Assembly: GCF_030944405.1 (NCBI RefSeq)
Contig: NZ_CP132339.1
Span: forward strand, 4,278,001 to 4,342,000
Length of the DNA: 64,000 nt
Source of the DNA: Janthinobacterium sp. J1-1
GTDB taxonomy: Bacteria > Pseudomonadota > Gammaproteobacteria > Burkholderiales > Burkholderiaceae_D
Direction of reading: 5' to 3'
The translations under genes and the position numbers were made by a program. A model generated the notes under the pieces. It saw nothing but the letters and a program-made list of their open reading frames with translations, ran no database searches and was not told where the DNA came from. The stretch's first letter is position 1. The number at the start of each line of letters is the position of its first letter. Shown piece after piece: positions 25,478 through 32,814 of this stretch.

Positions 25478-25483
25478 GAAGCG

Positions 25484-25590
25484 CAGGTCGGATTAGCGGG
25501 GCGCAGCCCCGCGTAATCCGACAACATTGTTGGCGTTGATTAGCGCCTCTGGTGGTGTTGGATTACGCGCAAGCGCTAATCCGACCTACG
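25484..25590. repeat. Dispersed palindromic element, paired form
   Basis: Starts CAGGTCGGATTAGCGGG, continues CCCGCGTAATCCGAC, CAACATTGTTGG, a spacer, then GGATTACGCGCAAGCGC and TAATCCGACCTACG. It has the same arms and the same CAACATTGTTGG centre as the element at 5791-5917. It lies between the peptidase and the STM4011-family gene, converging from both sides. Its right part supplies the last codons and stop of that radical SAM gene. Confidence 0.85.
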
Positions 25591-26475
25591 GTCACACGGC
25601 GACATGGTCACAATCCTGGCCAATACACCGTCCCCAAACACCGTCTGAAACGGCAAATCCTTGCGCTGCGCATAGCCGATATAGCAGTCGCACTTGAAAC
25701 GCGGGCAGCTGCGTTCCTGCAGCATGTCGGCCAGATTATCCTGATACAGATTCCCCAGCCGCTCCGGCAAAAAATGGCAGCGCGCCAGCTCGCCGTCGCC
25801 GTCGACCGACAGCGCCGTCTCGCCGGCGTAGCATCCCTTGCCGCGTGACGGTACCGGGCGCCGGTTCTGCAAAAACCACGGATCGATGGCATCGAGCCAT
25901 TCCAGGTCCTCGGCGCTGTAGTAGCCGGGACCGCGCCGGTCATAGGCATTCAGCCATAAATAGACGTGTTCTGGCAGCGCCGCGCGCAGCGCTTGAATGG
26001 CGTCGTAGTGTGCATGCAGCGCCACCACCCCGACCGAATAGCGCACGCCCATGGCGTCCAGCCGCGCGCAGCGTTCGACAAAGCGCGCGATTGTCGTCTG
26101 GCCCGGGTGATAGGTGCACCACAGGCCGATCTTGGCGCGGCTGGCAGCATGCATCTCGCTCAGCCACGCAAGCGGGCCGGCCAGGTTGGTCTGCAGCGCC
26201 ACCTGCCGCACATGGGGCAGGGCCGCCAGCGCCTGCATGGCGCTGCGGTAATGGCGCCGCACCAGCGCTTCGCCCCACGGCGTAAACAGCACGCTGATGG
26301 CGCGCGTCTGCCGCGCCACCCAGCCGGTAAAGCGGGCCACTTCCCGCGCATCGCGCGCCAGCACGGCGCGGCTGTCCTGCTTCTTGGCGAAGGGGCAGTA
26401 GGCGCAGGCGTAGTTGCAGCTCGATAGCGTACCCCTGTATAAGAGGGACAAGCTTCCGGGTGGCGCTGTCAGCAT
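25576..26475 (-). CDS. STM4011-family radical SAM protein
   Basis: 299 aa, last gene of the STM4015-to-STM4011 cassette. Radical SAM cluster cysteines are in SSCNYACAYCPFAK (CxxxCxxC). The C-terminal part has further cysteines (GCYAGETALSVDGDGELARC, then SCPRFKCDCYIGYA) in a SPASM/twitch-like pattern that would bind a second iron-sulfur cluster, as in peptide-modifying radical SAM enzymes. It overlaps the STM4012-family gene by 7 bp. The final residues, about DRRSD plus TAG, are encoded by a palindromic repeat. The substrate is unknown. Confidence 0.9.
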   Translation of the reverse strand: MLTAPPGSLSLLYRGTLSSCNYACAYCPFAKKQDSRAVLARDAREVARFTGWVARQTRAISVLFTPWGEALVRRHYRSAMQALAALPHVRQVALQTNLAGPLAWLSEMHAASRAKIGLWCTYHPGQTTIARFVERCARLDAMGVRYSVGVVALHAHYDAIQALRAALPEHVYLWLNAYDRRGPGYYSAEDLEWLDAIDPWFLQNRRPVPSRGKGCYAGETALSVDGDGELARCHFLPERLGNLYQDNLADMLQERSCPRFKCDCYIGYAQRKDLPFQTVFGDGVLARIVTMSPCDRRSD

Positions 26476-27848
26476 GCCTGGCCGCTTTCGGCCATCAGCG
26501 CGCGCACGGTATTCGACGCCAGCCAGGGGCCGATGGTGTCGGCGTAGGAGTAGCCATTGTCATTCAGGCGCAGCAGCGGCCCATGCTGCGTCACCAGTTC
26601 CAGCGCAAACAGTTCGGCCAGCTGCGGCAGGTCCAGCAGGCAGTCGCTGCCGAAACGGGCCATGTAGGCGTCCAGGTCCAGGCCCGGCTCCGTCAGCAGC
26701 GACTGGATCACATAGCGGCGCCGTTGATCCTCGTCCCCCAGCCGATAGCCATGTTCGGCCTGTGCGAAGCGCGCTTCGTCCAGCGCCAGGTAGTTGTCGA
26801 TAATGCCGATGGTTTCCGTGCGCGCCACCGCGTATTCGCTCGAATAGTGCAGCTGCGACGTGTACGAACGGGCGCCCGCACCCAGGCCCACCATGCCGTC
26901 GTTCTGGCAGCAGTAGGAGGGGCCGGCGTCTTCGGGCGCATGCGGAGCGCGGAACATGCGCATCGAAACCTGCACATAGCCCTGGGCGCGCAGGTGGTCG
27001 CGCGCGGCCGCGTACAGGGCCAGGCGGCTGTCGCCGTCGCGCGCCAGCATGATGGGGTCCAGGGTCCCGGCGCCCTTGCGGCGCGCGATCTTGCCCAGGC
27101 CAGTCTGCTCGCGCACATACAGCGGATACAGATAGATTTCTTCGGGCCGGAACGCCAGCGCGCTGTCGATCGACGCCAGCAGGCTGGCCACCGTCTGGCC
27201 CGCGATGCCGTAGATCAGGTCCAGGTTCAGGGTGGGAAACCCCGCTTCGCGGATCAGGGCGATGGCCTGGCGCACGGTGGAGTTTTGTTGGGGCCGCGCC
27301 AGCGCGCGCATTTCGCCGGCGGCAAAGCTCTGGATGCCCAGGCTGACCCGGTCGATGCCATGCGCGCGGCAGACGGCCAGCCGCTCGGCCGTAATGGTTT
27401 CGGGCGAGGCTTCGATGCCGGCCGGCGTGGCCTGCAAATCGATGCCGAGGATATCGCGCGCGCCGCACAGCAGGGTGTCGAGCTGCGACGCCGACAGATA
27501 GGTCGGTGTACCGCCACCGAGCGCGAAGCGGGCAAAGCGTCGCTCACCGAGGGCGCCGTCCATCGCGCGCATCTGCACCAGCACCTGCTGCACATAGCGC
27601 TCGACCATCTCGGCGCTGGGCCGCGCCATGGCGAACAGATTGCAGAAGCCGCAGCGCATTTCGCAGAACGGAATATGGATGTAGGCGAACAGGGCGGAAC
27701 GGTCCTGCCGCGCCCAGATGGGCGCCAGCGGCGTGGCCCGGGCCAGTGTGCGGTAGGCCGCCTTGTGCGGGTAAGAATAAGAATACGCCTGGTAAGGCGT
27801 GTGGCGCATGCGCTGCGCCAGGGTACCCGGCTGTTCGGATGGATTCAC
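26469..27848 (-). CDS. STM4012-family radical SAM protein (HemN/HemW-like)
   Basis: 459 aa from a GTG that overlaps the upstream TGA (GTGA). The radical SAM motif is IPFCEMRCGFCNLF. A HemN/HemW-type architecture follows: GGGTPTYL, SLGIQSF, NLDLIYGIAGQT and a C-terminal winged-helix-like HemN_C part. HemN/HemW relatives act on haem or porphyrin precursors or carry haem, but members of this group sit in the five-gene cassette and their substrate is not established. Confidence 0.9.
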   Translation of the reverse strand: MNPSEQPGTLAQRMRHTPYQAYSYSYPHKAAYRTLARATPLAPIWARQDRSALFAYIHIPFCEMRCGFCNLFAMARPSAEMVERYVQQVLVQMRAMDGALGERRFARFALGGGTPTYLSASQLDTLLCGARDILGIDLQATPAGIEASPETITAERLAVCRAHGIDRVSLGIQSFAAGEMRALARPQQNSTVRQAIALIREAGFPTLNLDLIYGIAGQTVASLLASIDSALAFRPEEIYLYPLYVREQTGLGKIARRKGAGTLDPIMLARDGDSRLALYAAARDHLRAQGYVQVSMRMFRAPHAPEDAGPSYCCQNDGMVGLGAGARSYTSQLHYSSEYAVARTETIGIIDNYLALDEARFAQAEHGYRLGDEDQRRRYVIQSLLTEPGLDLDAYMARFGSDCLLDLPQLAELFALELVTQHGPLLRLNDNGYSYADTIGPWLASNTVRALMAESGQAC

Positions 27849-28684
27849 GGTGCGGCTCCCTGGGAATGCTGGTGTGAAGGTTCAATGAAAAAATGCGCGT
27901 ACGGCACGTTCCAGACGCTGTCGTGGGCCACGCGGTGGCCGCGGTAGCCGTCTTCGCCATAGGCACTGCCGTGGTCCGAGCAGACGATGGCAAAGGTCGG
28001 CGCACGTCCGGCGCAGGCGTCGAACAGCGGCGCCAGCGCCTGGTCGACATAGCGCAGCGCGGCCGCGTGGCTATCGAGATTATCAAGCCGGCAGCCGGGC
28101 AGGTAGGCGCGGTTCGGCGTATGCAGGGCCGCCACGTTGATGAATAAAAAAGTGCGCTGGTCGTTTTCCGCCAGCAGCCGGGTGGCCAAGGCCACCTGTT
28201 TTTCCGTGGAATGGCGCCCGGCCACGCCCATGCCGGCGCTCCAGTGACTTTCCTGGAACAGCGCCGGCAGCACACGGCCCAGCGCCGTTTGTTTGTTAAA
28301 AAAGCCCACGCCGCCGATGCAGATGGTGCGGTAGCCGCGCGCGGCCAGCGCCTCGGGGATGCTCGCTTCCTCGAAGGCGAAGGTGCGTGGCGACGTCGTC
28401 TCGCTGCCGGCAAAGGCGCTGGCGAACAGGCGCGGATGGCGGCTGGGCGCGCAGGGCGTCGGCAAAAAGCCGGCAAAGAAGGCCTGGTGTGCGGCGTAGG
28501 TAAAGGTGGCGGGCGAGTGGCGCTTGTCCCAGCCCGTGGCCGGCAGGAAGCGCCCAAGCACCGGCAGTTCGCCTGCCTCGAACAGGGCCTGCGCCACGTC
28601 GTAACGCAGGGTGTCGAGGGTAAGGAAGACCATATCGTGGCTGCCCACGACAAGGTTCATGTCGGGAATGGCCGGCTCAGTCAT
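27845..28684 (-). CDS. STM4013-family sulfatase/alkaline-phosphatase-fold hydrolase
   Basis: 279 aa from the ATG at 28684, which overlaps the STM4014-family gene by 8 bp. The alkaline phosphatase superfamily core is seen as VFLTLDTLRYD (metal-binding Asp and the Thr nucleophile position) and CSDHGSAYGEDGYRGHRV (metal-binding DHG). It is shorter than normal sulfatases and lacks a signal peptide, so it acts in the cytoplasm. It may cleave or transfer a phosphate, sulfate or phospho-group for the cassette. Confidence 0.85.
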   Translation of the reverse strand: MTEPAIPDMNLVVGSHDMVFLTLDTLRYDVAQALFEAGELPVLGRFLPATGWDKRHSPATFTYAAHQAFFAGFLPTPCAPSRHPRLFASAFAGSETTSPRTFAFEEASIPEALAARGYRTICIGGVGFFNKQTALGRVLPALFQESHWSAGMGVAGRHSTEKQVALATRLLAENDQRTFLFINVAALHTPNRAYLPGCRLDNLDSHAAALRYVDQALAPLFDACAGRAPTFAIVCSDHGSAYGEDGYRGHRVAHDSVWNVPYAHFFIEPSHQHSQGAAP

Positions 28685-29771
28685 GATGGAAGTGCCGCAG
28701 CTGCGCCACATGGGTATCGTGCCCCTGCCACAAGAGGCCGGGCAGCAGGTCGCCAAACGCATTCGCCTCCAGCACGTGGGCCTGACCACGGCGCACCACC
28801 AGGTCGTAGCCGGCCACGCCGCTGGCGGGAAAGGCCAGCGCCGCCTGGCGGGTAGCCGCTTCCAGCGCCGCCATGTCAAGCTCGTTCAGCAGCGAGCAAG
28901 GATCGCCGCGCTGGTTGTCCAGGTGCAGATTGGTCATCATTTGCGTGCCCAGGCGCGCCACCCGGTGCGCGGGCTGGCCGGCAATCGCCACCACGCGCAG
29001 GTCATAATGGCTGTCGCCGCAGCGCGGCTTGGCTAGCCAGGCTTCCGCATACAATTCCTGCTTGGCCAGCGCGTCGACTAGGGCGGCGATATCGGCGGCG
29101 TTTTCATGGCGCGCGATGCGCTTGACATTGAACAGCCGCGTTGCGCCGTCCACCTGCACGATGCTGGCCGAGGTGGTGGCCTGCTGGCGGCCGCTCCGGT
29201 TGCGCCGGTAGGCCACCACGCCCGAGGCGGACGAGCCATAGCGCGGTTTCAGGTAGACCCGATCAAGATCGTGCTGGTGCAGCAGCGACTGCAGATGGTC
29301 GTAGCCGTCGATACGTCCAAGCAGCGCGGGGATCACTACGCCGTGCTCGGCCAGGTGGCGCTGGCAAGCCAGTTTGTCGGTCATCAGGGTAATCTCGCCC
29401 GGCGCGTTGAAAACATGCGCCCGGGGCAGGGCGGCCAGCTGGCGTGACAGGCGCGCCATGGCGTCCGAGAAACCGGCAAACCAGGCGTCCATCGCCAGCA
29501 GTTCGCCATGCTCGGGCGCACGCACGGGCGCGCGGTCCAGCAGGCGGCAGCCGTCGTGCAGCAGCTGCACATGCGTTGCCGCATCGTCGCCCGGCGGTTC
29601 GATCTTGAACCGGCAGGGCTGGCTCAGCGCGGTCTCAAGCAAGGCCGGCTGCGCCAGCCAGTCGCGCCATTCGAGCACCCGGGCAGGCGGCAGCGCCAGC
29701 TGCGCGCGCGCCGCCTGCAGCAGGCGCACGCGCTTGCTGCCACCGGTGGCCAGCAAGATCATCGCGGACAA
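28677..29771 (-). CDS. STM4014-family ATP-grasp-like protein
   Basis: 364 aa. The TTG at 29771 is chosen because GAGGG lies six bases before it; the ATG at 29762 is too far from that site. ATP-grasp features: VYLKPRYGSSASGVVAYRR (ATP-binding Lys and glycine loop), DLRVVAIAGQPAHRVARLG, and metal-binding EANAFGD. ATP-grasp enzymes join carboxylates to amines or thiols through an acyl phosphate, as in peptide ligases. Here the likely acceptor or substrate is the product or partner of the radical SAM enzymes. The stop is in the STM4013-family gene. Confidence 0.85.
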   Translation of the reverse strand: MSAMILLATGGSKRVRLLQAARAQLALPPARVLEWRDWLAQPALLETALSQPCRFKIEPPGDDAATHVQLLHDGCRLLDRAPVRAPEHGELLAMDAWFAGFSDAMARLSRQLAALPRAHVFNAPGEITLMTDKLACQRHLAEHGVVIPALLGRIDGYDHLQSLLHQHDLDRVYLKPRYGSSASGVVAYRRNRSGRQQATTSASIVQVDGATRLFNVKRIARHENAADIAALVDALAKQELYAEAWLAKPRCGDSHYDLRVVAIAGQPAHRVARLGTQMMTNLHLDNQRGDPCSLLNELDMAALEAATRQAALAFPASGVAGYDLVVRRGQAHVLEANAFGDLLPGLLWQGHDTHVAQLRHFHHD

Positions 29772-29783
29772 GGCGTACCCTCT

Positions 29784-30710
29784 TTACTCGCCGACGGCCA
29801 CGTAGCGATACACGTCGCCATCGTCTTCGTCGTCTTCCTGCGGATCGTCCAGCACCACCTCGAACGGCAGGGCCTTGAGTTTTTCCTGGTTCGCTTCCGA
29901 GATATAGTGGTGCGACAGGTCCAGGAGGGTCAAATTGCCAAGTTGCGTGCCGTGCAGCAGCGCTTCGGCGCCCACGTCGCCGAGCGTGCCCAGCGACAGG
30001 TCGAGCGTGGTGATGGTGGCCAGCAGCGGCTCGTTGGCCAGCCAGACGGCCAGTTCGTCGGCGATCTGCGCGTCGCGCAGGCCCAGATAGCGCAGGGTCG
30101 GCGTGGCCAGTTGCGCCAGCACTTTCCGGTATAGCGCCACGTCGCCCGAAAAGCCATAGTCGTCGGTGCCCAGCCACAGCTCCAGGTGTTCCAGTTTCGG
30201 CATGCTCGATTCCGCCAGGGCCTGGGCTATCTTCTGGTCCAGGCCACCGGATTCGATGGTGAGCTTGCGCAGGTTCTGGTGCGCGAACGGCTCCAGTATC
30301 AATTCATTGCCGCCGCGGATACGCAACTCTTCCAGCTGCGGGAAGGCGTCCAGCAGCGGCTTGTAGCTGCCTTGCACGATCCACGAGATTTCGCATTCCT
30401 CGTACGTCATGTCGCCGATAAACAGCGCGCGCAGTTTTGGCAGCTGCGGCGCATGGCCGGCCAGCGCGGCGATCACCTCGTCGGCGCCCGCTTCATACGG
30501 GTCGCCCCACATGCCGATGATCAGCGCCTCCAGCGCATTCTTGTCGGCTTTTTCCAGGAAGCCGGCGATCAGGTCCGGCATCTTGCGCTTGTCGTCATAT
30601 TCCAGCGACAAACGATACACCACGTCCGGCGAGGGATCGAAAGCGATCTCGGGGTCGTACTGCACGACTTTTTTATGGTGGAAGGTGGTGGTGCTGTCGG
30701 AAATGGTCAT
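29784..30710 (-). CDS. STM4015-family leucine-rich protein
   Basis: 308 aa, first gene of the cassette, with GGAG eight bases upstream of the ATG. It holds leucine-rich repeat-like units (LPKLRALFIGDM, FPQLEELRIRGG, MPKLEHLELWLG, TPTLRYLGLRDA, ITTLDLSLGTLG, LTLLDLSHHYIS). The C-terminus is strongly acidic (DDPQEDDEDDGD) and ends VYRYVAVGE. No signal peptide, membrane part or catalytic motif. As the only non-enzyme in a set with two radical SAM proteins and an ATP-grasp protein, it may be the scaffold or the substrate that they modify. This role is inference. Confidence 0.85.
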   Translation of the reverse strand: MTISDSTTTFHHKKVVQYDPEIAFDPSPDVVYRLSLEYDDKRKMPDLIAGFLEKADKNALEALIIGMWGDPYEAGADEVIAALAGHAPQLPKLRALFIGDMTYEECEISWIVQGSYKPLLDAFPQLEELRIRGGNELILEPFAHQNLRKLTIESGGLDQKIAQALAESSMPKLEHLELWLGTDDYGFSGDVALYRKVLAQLATPTLRYLGLRDAQIADELAVWLANEPLLATITTLDLSLGTLGDVGAEALLHGTQLGNLTLLDLSHHYISEANQEKLKALPFEVVLDDPQEDDEDDGDVYRYVAVGE

Positions 30711-30801
30711 TGCGGAGGCTCCATGAAAGGCAGTGGAAAGCTTGTCTATTCCAAAATCTTAGCATGGGCGCAAGGGCTTCTTGCACACCGCTGGACAGCA
30801 A

Positions 30802-31377
30802 CTATCGGTGGATGACAACCAGCAGTGCCTTGCCTTCGGTCTTGCCGAGGTTGCGGATGGTATGCGGCTGGTCGGCAGGATAGCGCGCCGTGCCGCCATT
30901 CTTGACCTTTTTCTTTGCTGTGCCCACTTCCAGTTCCAGGTTGCCGTGGATGACGGTCAGGTGTTCGGTGGTGCCCGGGTCGTGCGGCTGCGAAGCCAGT
31001 TCGCCGCCCGGCGCCAGGGTCACCTCATACCATTCATATTTGCCTGCCAGTTCCATCGGTCCCAGGATGCGCAGCACATAGCCGGCATGGTCGCCGGGCA
31101 GGGTGGGGGTTTCGTGGGCGTCGGTGACGCGGATGGTTTCCACCGCTTTTTCCGCGCTGGACAGCAATTCGCCGATCTGCACGCCCAGCGCATTGGCCAG
31201 GCGCCAGGTAATGGCGATGGTCGGATTGGCCTTTTCGCGCTCGATCTGCGACAGCATGGACTTCGAGACGCCCGCGATGCGCGACAAATCCTCCAGTGTC
31301 AGGCCGCGCGCCAGGCGCAACCGTTGCAAAGTGGCGCCCACTTCGGGCGGAGAATTGGTCGAAACACTGGTTTTCAT
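30802..31377 (-). CDS. XRE-family regulator with cupin domain (PuuR-like)
   Basis: 191 aa from the ATG at 31377. The helix-turn-helix is at about residues 12-65 (LRLARGLTLEDLSRIAGVSK, SMLSQIEREKANPTIAITWR). A small cupin domain fills the C-terminal half (PGGELASQPHDPGTTEHLTV, HGNLELEVGT). The pattern matches XRE/cupin regulators of amino-acid or amine catabolism. It is divergent from kbl-tdh, with a perfect palindrome between them, so it is likely to control threonine breakdown. An in-frame TTG at 31401 is an alternative start. Confidence 0.9.
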   Translation of the reverse strand: MKTSVSTNSPPEVGATLQRLRLARGLTLEDLSRIAGVSKSMLSQIEREKANPTIAITWRLANALGVQIGELLSSAEKAVETIRVTDAHETPTLPGDHAGYVLRILGPMELAGKYEWYEVTLAPGGELASQPHDPGTTEHLTVIHGNLELEVGTAKKKVKNGGTARYPADQPHTIRNLGKTEGKALLVVIHR

Positions 31378-31415
31378 CGGCGGTTGGCTTGCAAAGTTCA
31401 ATAGGCTTGGGTAAT

Positions 31416-31451
31416 ATCCACTATATTGAATTTCAGTTCGACATAGTGGAT
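31416..31451. promoter_or_regulatory. Palindrome between the XRE/cupin gene and kbl
   Basis: Arms ATCCACTAT (31416-31424) and ATAGTGGAT (31443-31451) are perfect 9-bp complements separated by 18 bp. The site lies 39 bp upstream of the regulator start and about 140 bp upstream of kbl. It is a good candidate operator for the XRE/cupin protein. Confidence 0.6.
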
Positions 31452-31587
31452 TTTGAGGCGAAACACGGAAAACGTGTAGACTTCAAACAGCGCTTCACGG
31501 TACAGCATATGGCGCGCAGCGGTCAAGCGGCCGGCCTTTCCCTATGGCGGCGGGTACGAAACATACAACACGGACACAAGGATCATC

Positions 31588-32814
31588 ATGAGCGAGCAAG
31601 CGAAGAACACCTTTTTCAGCGGTCTGCAACAGAACCTCGATCAACTGCGCCAGCAGGGCCTGTACAAGCCCGAGCGCGTGATCGCCTCGCGCCAGGGCGC
31701 TGAAGTGGTGTGCGACGATGGCCGCACCCTGATCAATATGTGTGCCAACAATTACCTGGGCCTGTCGGGCGACCTGCAGACGCAGCAGGCGTCGATCGCC
31801 GCCACCGAAAAATACGGCTATGGCCTGTCGTCGGTGCGCTTTATCTGCGGCACGCAGACCGTGCACAAGGAACTGGAACAGGCCATCTCGTCTTTCTTGG
31901 GCACCGAAGACACGATACTGTACGCGGCCGCGTTCGACGCCAACGGCGGCGTGTTCGAGCCGCTGTTCGACGAGAACGACGCCATCATCTCCGACGCGCT
32001 GAACCACGCCTCCATCATCGACGGCATCCGCCTGTGCAAGGCCGGCCGCTACCGCTATGCCCACAACGACATGGCCGACCTGGAAGTGCAGCTGCAGGCC
32101 GCGATCGCCGCCGGCAAGCGCCACAAGGTGATCGTCACCGACGGCGTGTTTTCGATGGACGGCACGATTGCCCAGCTCGACAAGATCTGCGACCTGGCCG
32201 ACAAATACGATGCGCTGGTGATGATCGACGAATGCCACGCTTCCGGCTTTATGGGCGCGACGGGGCGCGGGACGCACGAACACCACAATGTGATGGGCCG
32301 CATCGACATCATCACCGGCACCCTGGGCAAGGCCCTGGGCGGCGCCATGGGCGGCTTTACCTCGGCACGCAAGGAAGTGATCGACACCCTGCGCCAGAAG
32401 TCGCGTCCTTATCTGTTCTCGAACACGCTGGCGCCATCGATCGCCGGCGCCTCGCTGTCGGTGCTCGAGCGCCTGGCAAAGTCGACGGAACTGCGCGACC
32501 GCCTGCATAAAAACACGGCCTTCTTCCGCAGCGAGATCGAACGCATCGGCTTTACCATCAAGCCGGGCACCCACCCTGTGGTTCCGGTGATGCTGTTCGA
32601 CGCGCCGGTGGCGCAAAAATTCGCCGCACGTCTGTATGAACTGGGCGTGCTGGTAACGGGCTTTTTCTATCCGGTGGTGCCGATGGGCCAGGCGCGCGTG
32701 CGCGTGCAGCTGTCGGCCGCACATACCCGCGAACAGCTGGTGACGGTGCTGGCCGCGTTCGAGCAGGCCGGCAAGGAACTGGGCCTGATCCAGGCCACCA
32801 CGACCACCAATTAA
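31588..32814 (+). CDS. kbl: Glycine C-acetyltransferase (2-amino-3-ketobutyrate CoA ligase)
   Basis: 408 aa with AAGGA upstream of the ATG. PLP enzyme of the alpha-oxoamine synthase group. Lys248 in TGTLGKALGGAMGG is the PLP-binding lysine, and MIDECHASGFMGATGRGTHE holds the cofactor-binding Asp and His. It splits 2-amino-3-ketobutyrate with CoA into glycine and acetyl-CoA. It is followed 23 bp later by tdh, giving the complete threonine-to-glycine route. It is about 10 residues longer than E. coli Kbl. Confidence 0.97.
   Translation: MSEQAKNTFFSGLQQNLDQLRQQGLYKPERVIASRQGAEVVCDDGRTLINMCANNYLGLSGDLQTQQASIAATEKYGYGLSSVRFICGTQTVHKELEQAISSFLGTEDTILYAAAFDANGGVFEPLFDENDAIISDALNHASIIDGIRLCKAGRYRYAHNDMADLEVQLQAAIAAGKRHKVIVTDGVFSMDGTIAQLDKICDLADKYDALVMIDECHASGFMGATGRGTHEHHNVMGRIDIITGTLGKALGGAMGGFTSARKEVIDTLRQKSRPYLFSNTLAPSIAGASLSVLERLAKSTELRDRLHKNTAFFRSEIERIGFTIKPGTHPVVPVMLFDAPVAQKFAARLYELGVLVTGFFYPVVPMGQARVRVQLSAAHTREQLVTVLAAFEQAGKELGLIQATTTTN

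Follow-up and report, generated by a model that had tools for sequence, protein, structure and literature searches.

Which single pathway could need a leucine-rich repeat (LRR) protein, an ATP-grasp ligase, a sulfatase-fold hydrolase and two radical S-adenosylmethionine (SAM) enzymes side by side? The question is raised by a 64,000-nucleotide stretch of Janthinobacterium sp. J1-1 (contig NZ_CP132339.1, positions 4,278,001 to 4,342,000; hereafter the window, numbered from its first letter), in which five genes follow each other on the minus strand (25576-30710) in the order STM4015, STM4014, STM4013, STM4012, STM4011. The answer proposed here starts from the C-terminal end of the LRR protein STM4015, whose heptapeptide R-Y-x-x-x-x-E is a new observation and the most informative feature of the cassette. 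The original prediction had described five same-strand genes with gaps or overlaps of 13 bp or less, and this is borne out by a first gap of 12 bp followed by overlaps of 8, 4 and 7 bp. Its family assignment also holds, as all five proteins exceed their NCBIfam cut-offs: 339 bits for fam_STM4015 (cut-off 275), 322 for fam_STM4014 (175), 396 for fam_STM4013 (NF038075; 250), 573 for the STM4012 family (NF006067; 380) and 372 for rSAM_STM4011 (NF038073; 200). In Pfam, ATP-grasp_3 (STM4014), Sulfatase (STM4013, 45 bits) and Radical_SAM (STM4012) lie above the gathering score; LRR_6 (STM4015), HemN_C (STM4012), and Radical_SAM and SPASM (STM4011) lie slightly below it.

Loci for comparison stem from an STM4012 scan over one genome per species, where the best 80 of 86 relatives were kept and represent 78 loci, a sample biased toward close relatives; five search profiles were built from the fetched loci, with the window proteins as seeds. 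The STM4015 profile yielded 123 hits, of which 108 were counted (200 profile positions, more than 150 bits) and 15 dropped; the counted proteins end in RY....E in 93 cases, in R[YF]....E in 96, in a looser form in 100, and in E in 101. After thinning to less than 60% identity (n=47), E is found at position -1 in 44 sequences, R at -7 in 42, and Y or F at -6 in 39 and five, respectively; the complete R[YF]....E is present in 40/47, and positions -8 to -15 show no conservation comparable to that of the tail. In an alignment of the window protein with 32 of the 44 non-redundant sequences that score at least 255 bits, 12 columns do not vary, R302 and E308 being two of them; since one of the two sequences excluded from the 34 selected candidates is tailless (L066, ending in DYELISF), this invariance is not unbiased, and across all 44 candidates R(-7) occurs in 41 and E(-1) in 43. 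The 31 STM4015 genes of Oxalobacteraceae always encode R, Y and E, each by two different codons; the changes at these positions are only synonymous, which argues for selection on the protein sequence. Among the complete STM4015 frames of plasmid records, the final E is kept by all 14 and R[YF]....E by 12, the exceptions being Salmonella and Bacteroides finegoldii. The tail is mostly preceded by an acidic linker: the 12 residues before the heptapeptide carry a mean net charge of -3.3, where random 12-mers taken from these proteins average -0.75 (n=44 non-redundant, E-ending sequences, 10 of which have a linker that is not acidic), in a protein with a mean net charge of -21 overall.

The tail is specific to this family. 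A back-translated tail pattern, stricter than the motif itself, was run over 39 whole genomes; it matched 36 times in 28 of them, every time at an STM4015 end, and in reversed form six times. The remaining 11 genomes may therefore carry other tail forms. Outside the clusters, none of 24 LRR frames weakly similar to STM4015 ends in R[YF]....E and three end in E (23 of these frames are distinct; two further, open-ended ones were dropped). Scanning the 9277 frames of the first 82 loci for R[YF][CVSYWIA]...E yielded, besides the profile hits, one sole tail-bearing frame, a 66-residue fragment adjoining an STM4015 gene. Eleven STM4015 frames lie distant from STM4011-4013, which in draft assemblies may reflect a contig break; eight of them have R[YF]....E and nine the final E, and two adjoin an STM4014 gene (L134, L140). 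More than one long STM4015 is found in 18 of the 78 loci, mostly in cyanobacteria and with a maximum of six; these paralogues are highly divergent in their LRR part and at positions -5 to -2, but 48/56 of their frames keep R[YF]....E and 50/56 the final E. LRR paralogues are also known with differing N-terminal parts, which give WGR or weak HEAT-like matches. Because STM4015 thus nearly always ends in the same Glu-terminated tail, the other four enzymes probably act chemically on this tail. Of the two targets that the original prediction had considered for the cassette, the LRR protein gains from the conserved Glu tail and its absence from other LRR frames, from the paralogues within clusters, and from a partner ligase of the RimK/LysX/ArgX type; the other, a small-molecule ligand of the LRR solenoid, finds no support in this analysis.

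The five genes also behave as one set. All of them are present in 64 of the 78 loci, with the order 4015-4014-4013-4012-4011 kept in 62; several of the 14 incomplete loci are truncated by contig ends, and in Sinosporangium STM4014 is absent from the locus and located elsewhere in the genome. Within the window's taxonomic family, the identical 25 of 195 genomes, from 6 of 44 genera, are above the cut-off for each of the five profiles, and six further genomes have weak LRR matches below the STM4015 cut-off; the 25 are related and therefore do not amount to 25 independent events of co-occurrence. At the level of the phylum the families are rare: among 299 genomes, the STM4015 cut-off is passed by the window's genome alone, with one other weak match. 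The organisms named in the 78-locus scan and in the further records with cassette genes represent nine phyla: Pseudomonadota, Cyanobacteriota, Myxococcota, Chloroflexota, Planctomycetota, Actinomycetota, Deinococcota, Bacillota and, with an incomplete set, Bacteroidota. The co-location of the five genes is not chance, and the earlier claim that the families travel together is confirmed by the identical genome sets and complete loci. Many genomes with single members, which would have spoken against it, were not seen among the 195, and scattered or incomplete sets exist elsewhere. The further claim of a dedicated pathway is strengthened by this strict co-occurrence, with the modification reaction itself a prediction from sequence.

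The enzyme proposed to act on the terminal glutamate is STM4014. Its alignment (the window protein and 24 of 27 relatives) shows K175, D257, R259, D323, E335 and N337 as invariant, including the E-x-N motif described for ATP-grasp ligases of the RimK/LysX type (PMC4431377). The rimK_fam model is matched by 19 of the 25 members at E ≤ 0.01, although not by the window protein, for which LysX is likewise not among the NCBIfam matches; the resemblance to RimK, LysX and ArgX is one of family and fold, as judged from fold comparison and weak profile matches. These ligases are described as joining amino acids to a protein C-terminus, LysX and ArgX to the last glutamate (PMC10433800). With Glu as the most constant residue of the tail and a ligase of terminal-glutamate kinship encoded next to it, the simplest reading is that STM4014 joins something to this Glu.

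Both radical SAM enzymes and the hydrolase have conserved catalytic residues. In STM4012, C62, C66 and C69 are invariant in 27 aligned sequences (the window protein and 26 of 31 relatives), and PDB matches include HemN (1OLT, E 3.9e-53) and the methyltransferase NocN (9P2U, E 1.3e-33). In STM4011, C20, C24 and C27 are invariant in 23 aligned sequences together with C215, C233, C257, C262 and C264, the latter five being SPASM-like in their sequence pattern. Apart from their own model, these 23 members have weak similarity to several others, including viperin (in 8), PapB (in 7), a tungsten-enzyme maturase (in 7) and a sulfatase maturase (in 6). STM4013, of the sulfatase/phosphodiesterase fold, shows F-T-x-x-x-H, D-H-G and G-H-R as invariant in 22 aligned sequences, with a Thr that likely occupies the position of the nucleophile. 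Sulfatases that depend on formylglycine carry the motif C/S-x-P-x-R, which is absent at this likely site in all 22; with Thr in its place, STM4013 would not be a formylglycine sulfatase. A HAD-IIB (Cof-type) phosphatase gene overlaps the end of STM4011 in Salmonella (L178:8084-8818), and a HAD domain is fused to STM4011 in B. finegoldii, which hints at a phosphorylated intermediate.

We therefore propose, with a confidence that is about evenly balanced, that the cassette is an amino-group carrier protein pathway of the LysW type with radical SAM tailoring. STM4015 would be the carrier or protein substrate, its rigid LRR domain and mostly acidic linker presenting the R-Y-x-x-x-x-E tail. We infer that STM4014 activates a carboxylate of the terminal glutamate (Glu308 in the window) and attaches a building block that bears an amine; the SPASM-type STM4011 and the HemN-type STM4012 would then, if this order of steps is right, modify the tethered group or the neighbouring tail by radical reactions, with the R-Y motif and the LRR domain as recognition elements, and STM4013 may cleave or transfer a phosphate-type ester on an intermediate.

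The LysW pathways for lysine, arginine and vazabitide likewise have a negatively charged protein with a conserved, Glu-ending C-terminal motif and a globular domain ahead of it, and an ATP-grasp ligase nearby (LysX or ArgX, to which STM4014 shows kinship in fold and, weakly, in profile matches). The globular domain, however, is a small zinc-binding one with three or four Cys in LysW and an LRR fold with no Cys in invariant or nearly invariant columns in STM4015; the partners are a kinase, a reductase, an aminotransferase and a carboxypeptidase there, and radical SAM enzymes here; and the C-terminal motif EDWGE described for LysW (PMC10433800) contrasts with RYxxxxE. As motif and domain differ, the cassette falls outside the LysW family, though it probably works like a LysW pathway. 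Pearlins (TglA or TmoA with a peptide aminoacyl-tRNA ligase, PEARL) also involve chemistry at the C-terminus of a ribosomally made scaffold, and TmoD is described as a radical SAM enzyme working on the tethered residue (PMC9303977). They use PEARL and aminoacyl-tRNA, whereas the cassette has an ATP-grasp ligase, a folded LRR scaffold and no protease among its five genes, all of which are assigned to families other than PEARL.

Several observations weigh against the LysW-type reading. None of the five genes encodes a LysZ-, LysY-, LysJ- or LysK-like enzyme or a peptidase, which leaves product release unexplained; the neighbouring gene for an S9 peptidase runs towards the cassette and is seen only in Janthinobacterium or window loci. 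The tail is incomplete in 7/47 non-redundant STM4015, three of which also lack the final E. Salmonella STM4015 ends in MNAMYTE, keeping E without R-Y, the B. finegoldii protein in YYPMITE, and a divergent LRR protein of Gemmata in QGDYE. Some paralogues have no tail, and a carrier pathway would not normally have a number of paralogous carriers in one genome. With a mean predicted local distance difference test score (pLDDT) of 81 for the last block of STM4015 in AlphaFold2 (AF2), the tail is not predicted as plainly disordered. For STM4014, the ATP-grasp rows of the fold comparison are close in Z (differences below 1 counting as a tie), and a further LysX entry, 1UC9, reaches a Z of only 19.3, similar to D-Ala ligases; its profile has no match among PDB sequences at E 0.01, and at E ≤ 10 biotin carboxylase (0.013), RimK (0.015) and LysX (0.016) follow each other closely. 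The most frequent other model for STM4011 is viperin (best E 0.0007). Finally, a Thiotrichaceae assembly has STM4012 and STM4011 with no match for STM4015 or STM4014, and Pseudanabaenaceae LEGE 13415 and Calothrix PCC 7716, single genomes both, lack STM4014 and STM4011, respectively.

A ribosomally synthesised and post-translationally modified peptide (RiPP), with the heptapeptide as core and the LRR domain as a large leader, is an unlikely alternative. Here the radical SAM enzymes would cross-link or otherwise change residues of the tail, be it Tyr(-6), Glu(-1) or the variable ones; STM4014 would form an amide or ester, and the modified peptide or cofactor would be cut off. SPASM-type enzymes do act in RiPP systems such as pyrroloquinoline quinone (PQQ), mycofactocin and the ranthipeptides, likewise beside a candidate substrate with a conserved C-terminal motif, and PQQ is made from a Glu and a Tyr of PqqA; the conserved Y and E of the tail have four residues between them, several paralogous precursors vary in their inner residues, and STM4011 weakly matches the peptide maturases PapB (7/23) and HxsB (5/23). 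Yet its commonest other match, viperin (8/23), is not a peptide maturase. The Phe at -6 in 5/47 sequences and the Asn in Salmonella speak against a step that depends on the phenol, so that a PQQ-like Tyr-Glu cross-link is rated lower; the tail offers no conserved Ser, Thr or Lys as acceptor, so that a graspetide-type ring within it is also rated low. Where the known SPASM systems have a short leader, the cassette would have an unusual one of 300 residues, along with HemN-like and sulfatase-fold partners, and peptidase and exporter are absent from the five genes.

STM4014 might instead add amino acids to the end of STM4015 as a lasting modification that switches the binding activity of the LRR domain, the other enzymes decorating the tag and no small product being released. 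RimK is described as modifying ribosomal protein S6 in this way (PMC10092738, PMC4431377), also with an ATP-grasp ligase at a protein C-terminus, and the frequent rimK_fam matches of STM4014 fit; so does the cassette's want of a release enzyme, and LRR paralogues with varied N-termini resemble several effectors rather than one carrier. We consider this improbable, however, since a simple tag would hardly call for a hydrolase and two radical SAM enzymes, and unlike RimK with S6, the cassette has a dedicated LRR target beside these extra genes. Still less probable, and close to the second target of the original prediction, is that the four enzymes merely dock on the tail and that the LRR solenoid binds the true substrate, a small molecule or another protein: R and Y might make up such a docking site and the tail is fairly ordered in AF2, but neither the top conservation of the last residue within the tail nor a ligase with terminal-glutamate kinship would be explained. 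That STM4011 is an anaerobic sulfatase maturase acting on STM4013, as the sulfatase fold of the latter and weak matches of six of 23 STM4011 members to the maturase model (best E 0.0005) might suggest, is very improbable and was rejected, given that the invariant F-T-x-x-x-H site of STM4013 has no convertible Cys or Ser and that STM4015 and STM4014 would be left without a role. Anti-phage defence was also rejected: at E 0.01, four of the five proteins match no PADLOC model, and STM4012 matches PDC-M51A (29.8 bits, E 6.4e-8) over residues 150-251 only.

Features of the cassette in the window, with coordinates counted from its first letter.
Feature	Position	Strand	Remark
STM4015 family LRR protein	29784..30710	-	308 aa; proposed carrier or substrate
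Acidic linker DDPQEDDEDDGDVY preceding the tail	29808..29849	-	from the reading-frame translation
Heptapeptide RYVAVGE and stop	29784..29807	-	proposed site of action; last residue Glu308
STM4014 family ATP-grasp ligase	28677..29771	-	TTG start; alternative ATG at 29762
STM4013 family hydrolase, alkaline phosphatase/sulfatase fold	27845..28684	-	279 aa from ATG
STM4012 family HemN-like radical SAM enzyme	26469..27848	-	GTG start, 459 aa
STM4011 family radical SAM enzyme, SPASM-like cysteines	25576..26475	-	299 aa

The source genome comprises 6.95 Mb on two contigs, and its nearest cassette loci are those of Janthinobacterium. A gene for an XRE-cupin regulator (window 30802-31401) immediately precedes the operon in the same orientation; a promoter scan of window 30650-31600 found no promoter. 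This regulator and the convergent prolyl oligopeptidase (S9 peptidase) are each matched in 17 of 82 loci (E 1e-30), which are exclusively those of Janthinobacterium or the window itself; we therefore take both flanks as local synteny, and the regulator is probably not part of the five-gene system. Nested inverted repeats with 17-nt arms lie between the prolyl oligopeptidase gene and the cassette (window 25482-25590) and extend into the last codons of STM4011.

When the neighbours in 35 of the 78 loci were searched all against all, the groups listed consisted largely of antisense shadows of the cassette genes. They also included a pair in which a DUF6745 protein is joined by a roughly 100-residue protein that has a QREY stretch towards its end. 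The pair is found near the cassette in nine loci (L068, L070, L071, L074, L078, L180, L181, L187, L188) of Methylobacterium, actinomycetes, Anaerolineae, Isosphaeraceae and Deinococcus; they are possible accessory genes. The cassette genes themselves vary in places. STM4014 and STM4013 share one stop-to-stop frame, an apparent fusion, in Isosphaeraceae (L078:6974-8977) and Embleya (L182:3499-5793); in the B. finegoldii cluster (L183:6758-10775), STM4013 and STM4012 are reduced to short remnants, and STM4015, STM4014 and the STM4011-HAD fusion remain open frames. A partial, Salmonella-like STM4015 gene at the end of the record of Salmonella phage JD01 (L184) may stem from the host or from misassembly.

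Neither the cassette nor the tail is described in the title or abstract opening of any open-licence paper listed by the literature searches; subscription papers, among them the survey of ATP-grasp amidoligases that Iyer and colleagues published in 2009, lie outside this scope and could have touched on them. In two papers, STM4013 and STM4015 are named in tables only, and a graspetide paper (PMC8939145) has no match for the terms LRR, STM40 or LysX. One member of the STM4015 family has a solved LRR structure, 2RA8 of Bacteroides fragilis (Q64V53), titled as an uncharacterised protein. Its residues to 354 of a 362-residue chain read ...DDYSYPMITE, and the last eight, which are not seen, are probably a purification tag; it has Ser instead of Arg at -7 and an N-terminal extension, which is a WGR domain in the B. 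finegoldii relative.

Beyond the single cassette, we tentatively suggest, as a rather less than even prospect, an unrecognised class of protein-tethered biosynthesis, in which an LRR amino-group carrier, loaded on its terminal glutamate by an ATP-grasp ligase and worked on by two radical SAM enzymes, would yield a new compound or cofactor in about nine phyla, with parallel carriers in cyanobacteria. For five uncharacterised families, whose members occur in organisms as different as Salmonella, cyanobacteria, Deinococcus, Streptomyces and planctomycetes, this provides a single reaction to test, ligation at the final residue of the LRR protein. If the proposal is true, it would unite carrier-protein biosynthesis, as known from LysW and the pearlins, with radical SAM chemistry, and the 2007 structure 2RA8 would gain a function to test.

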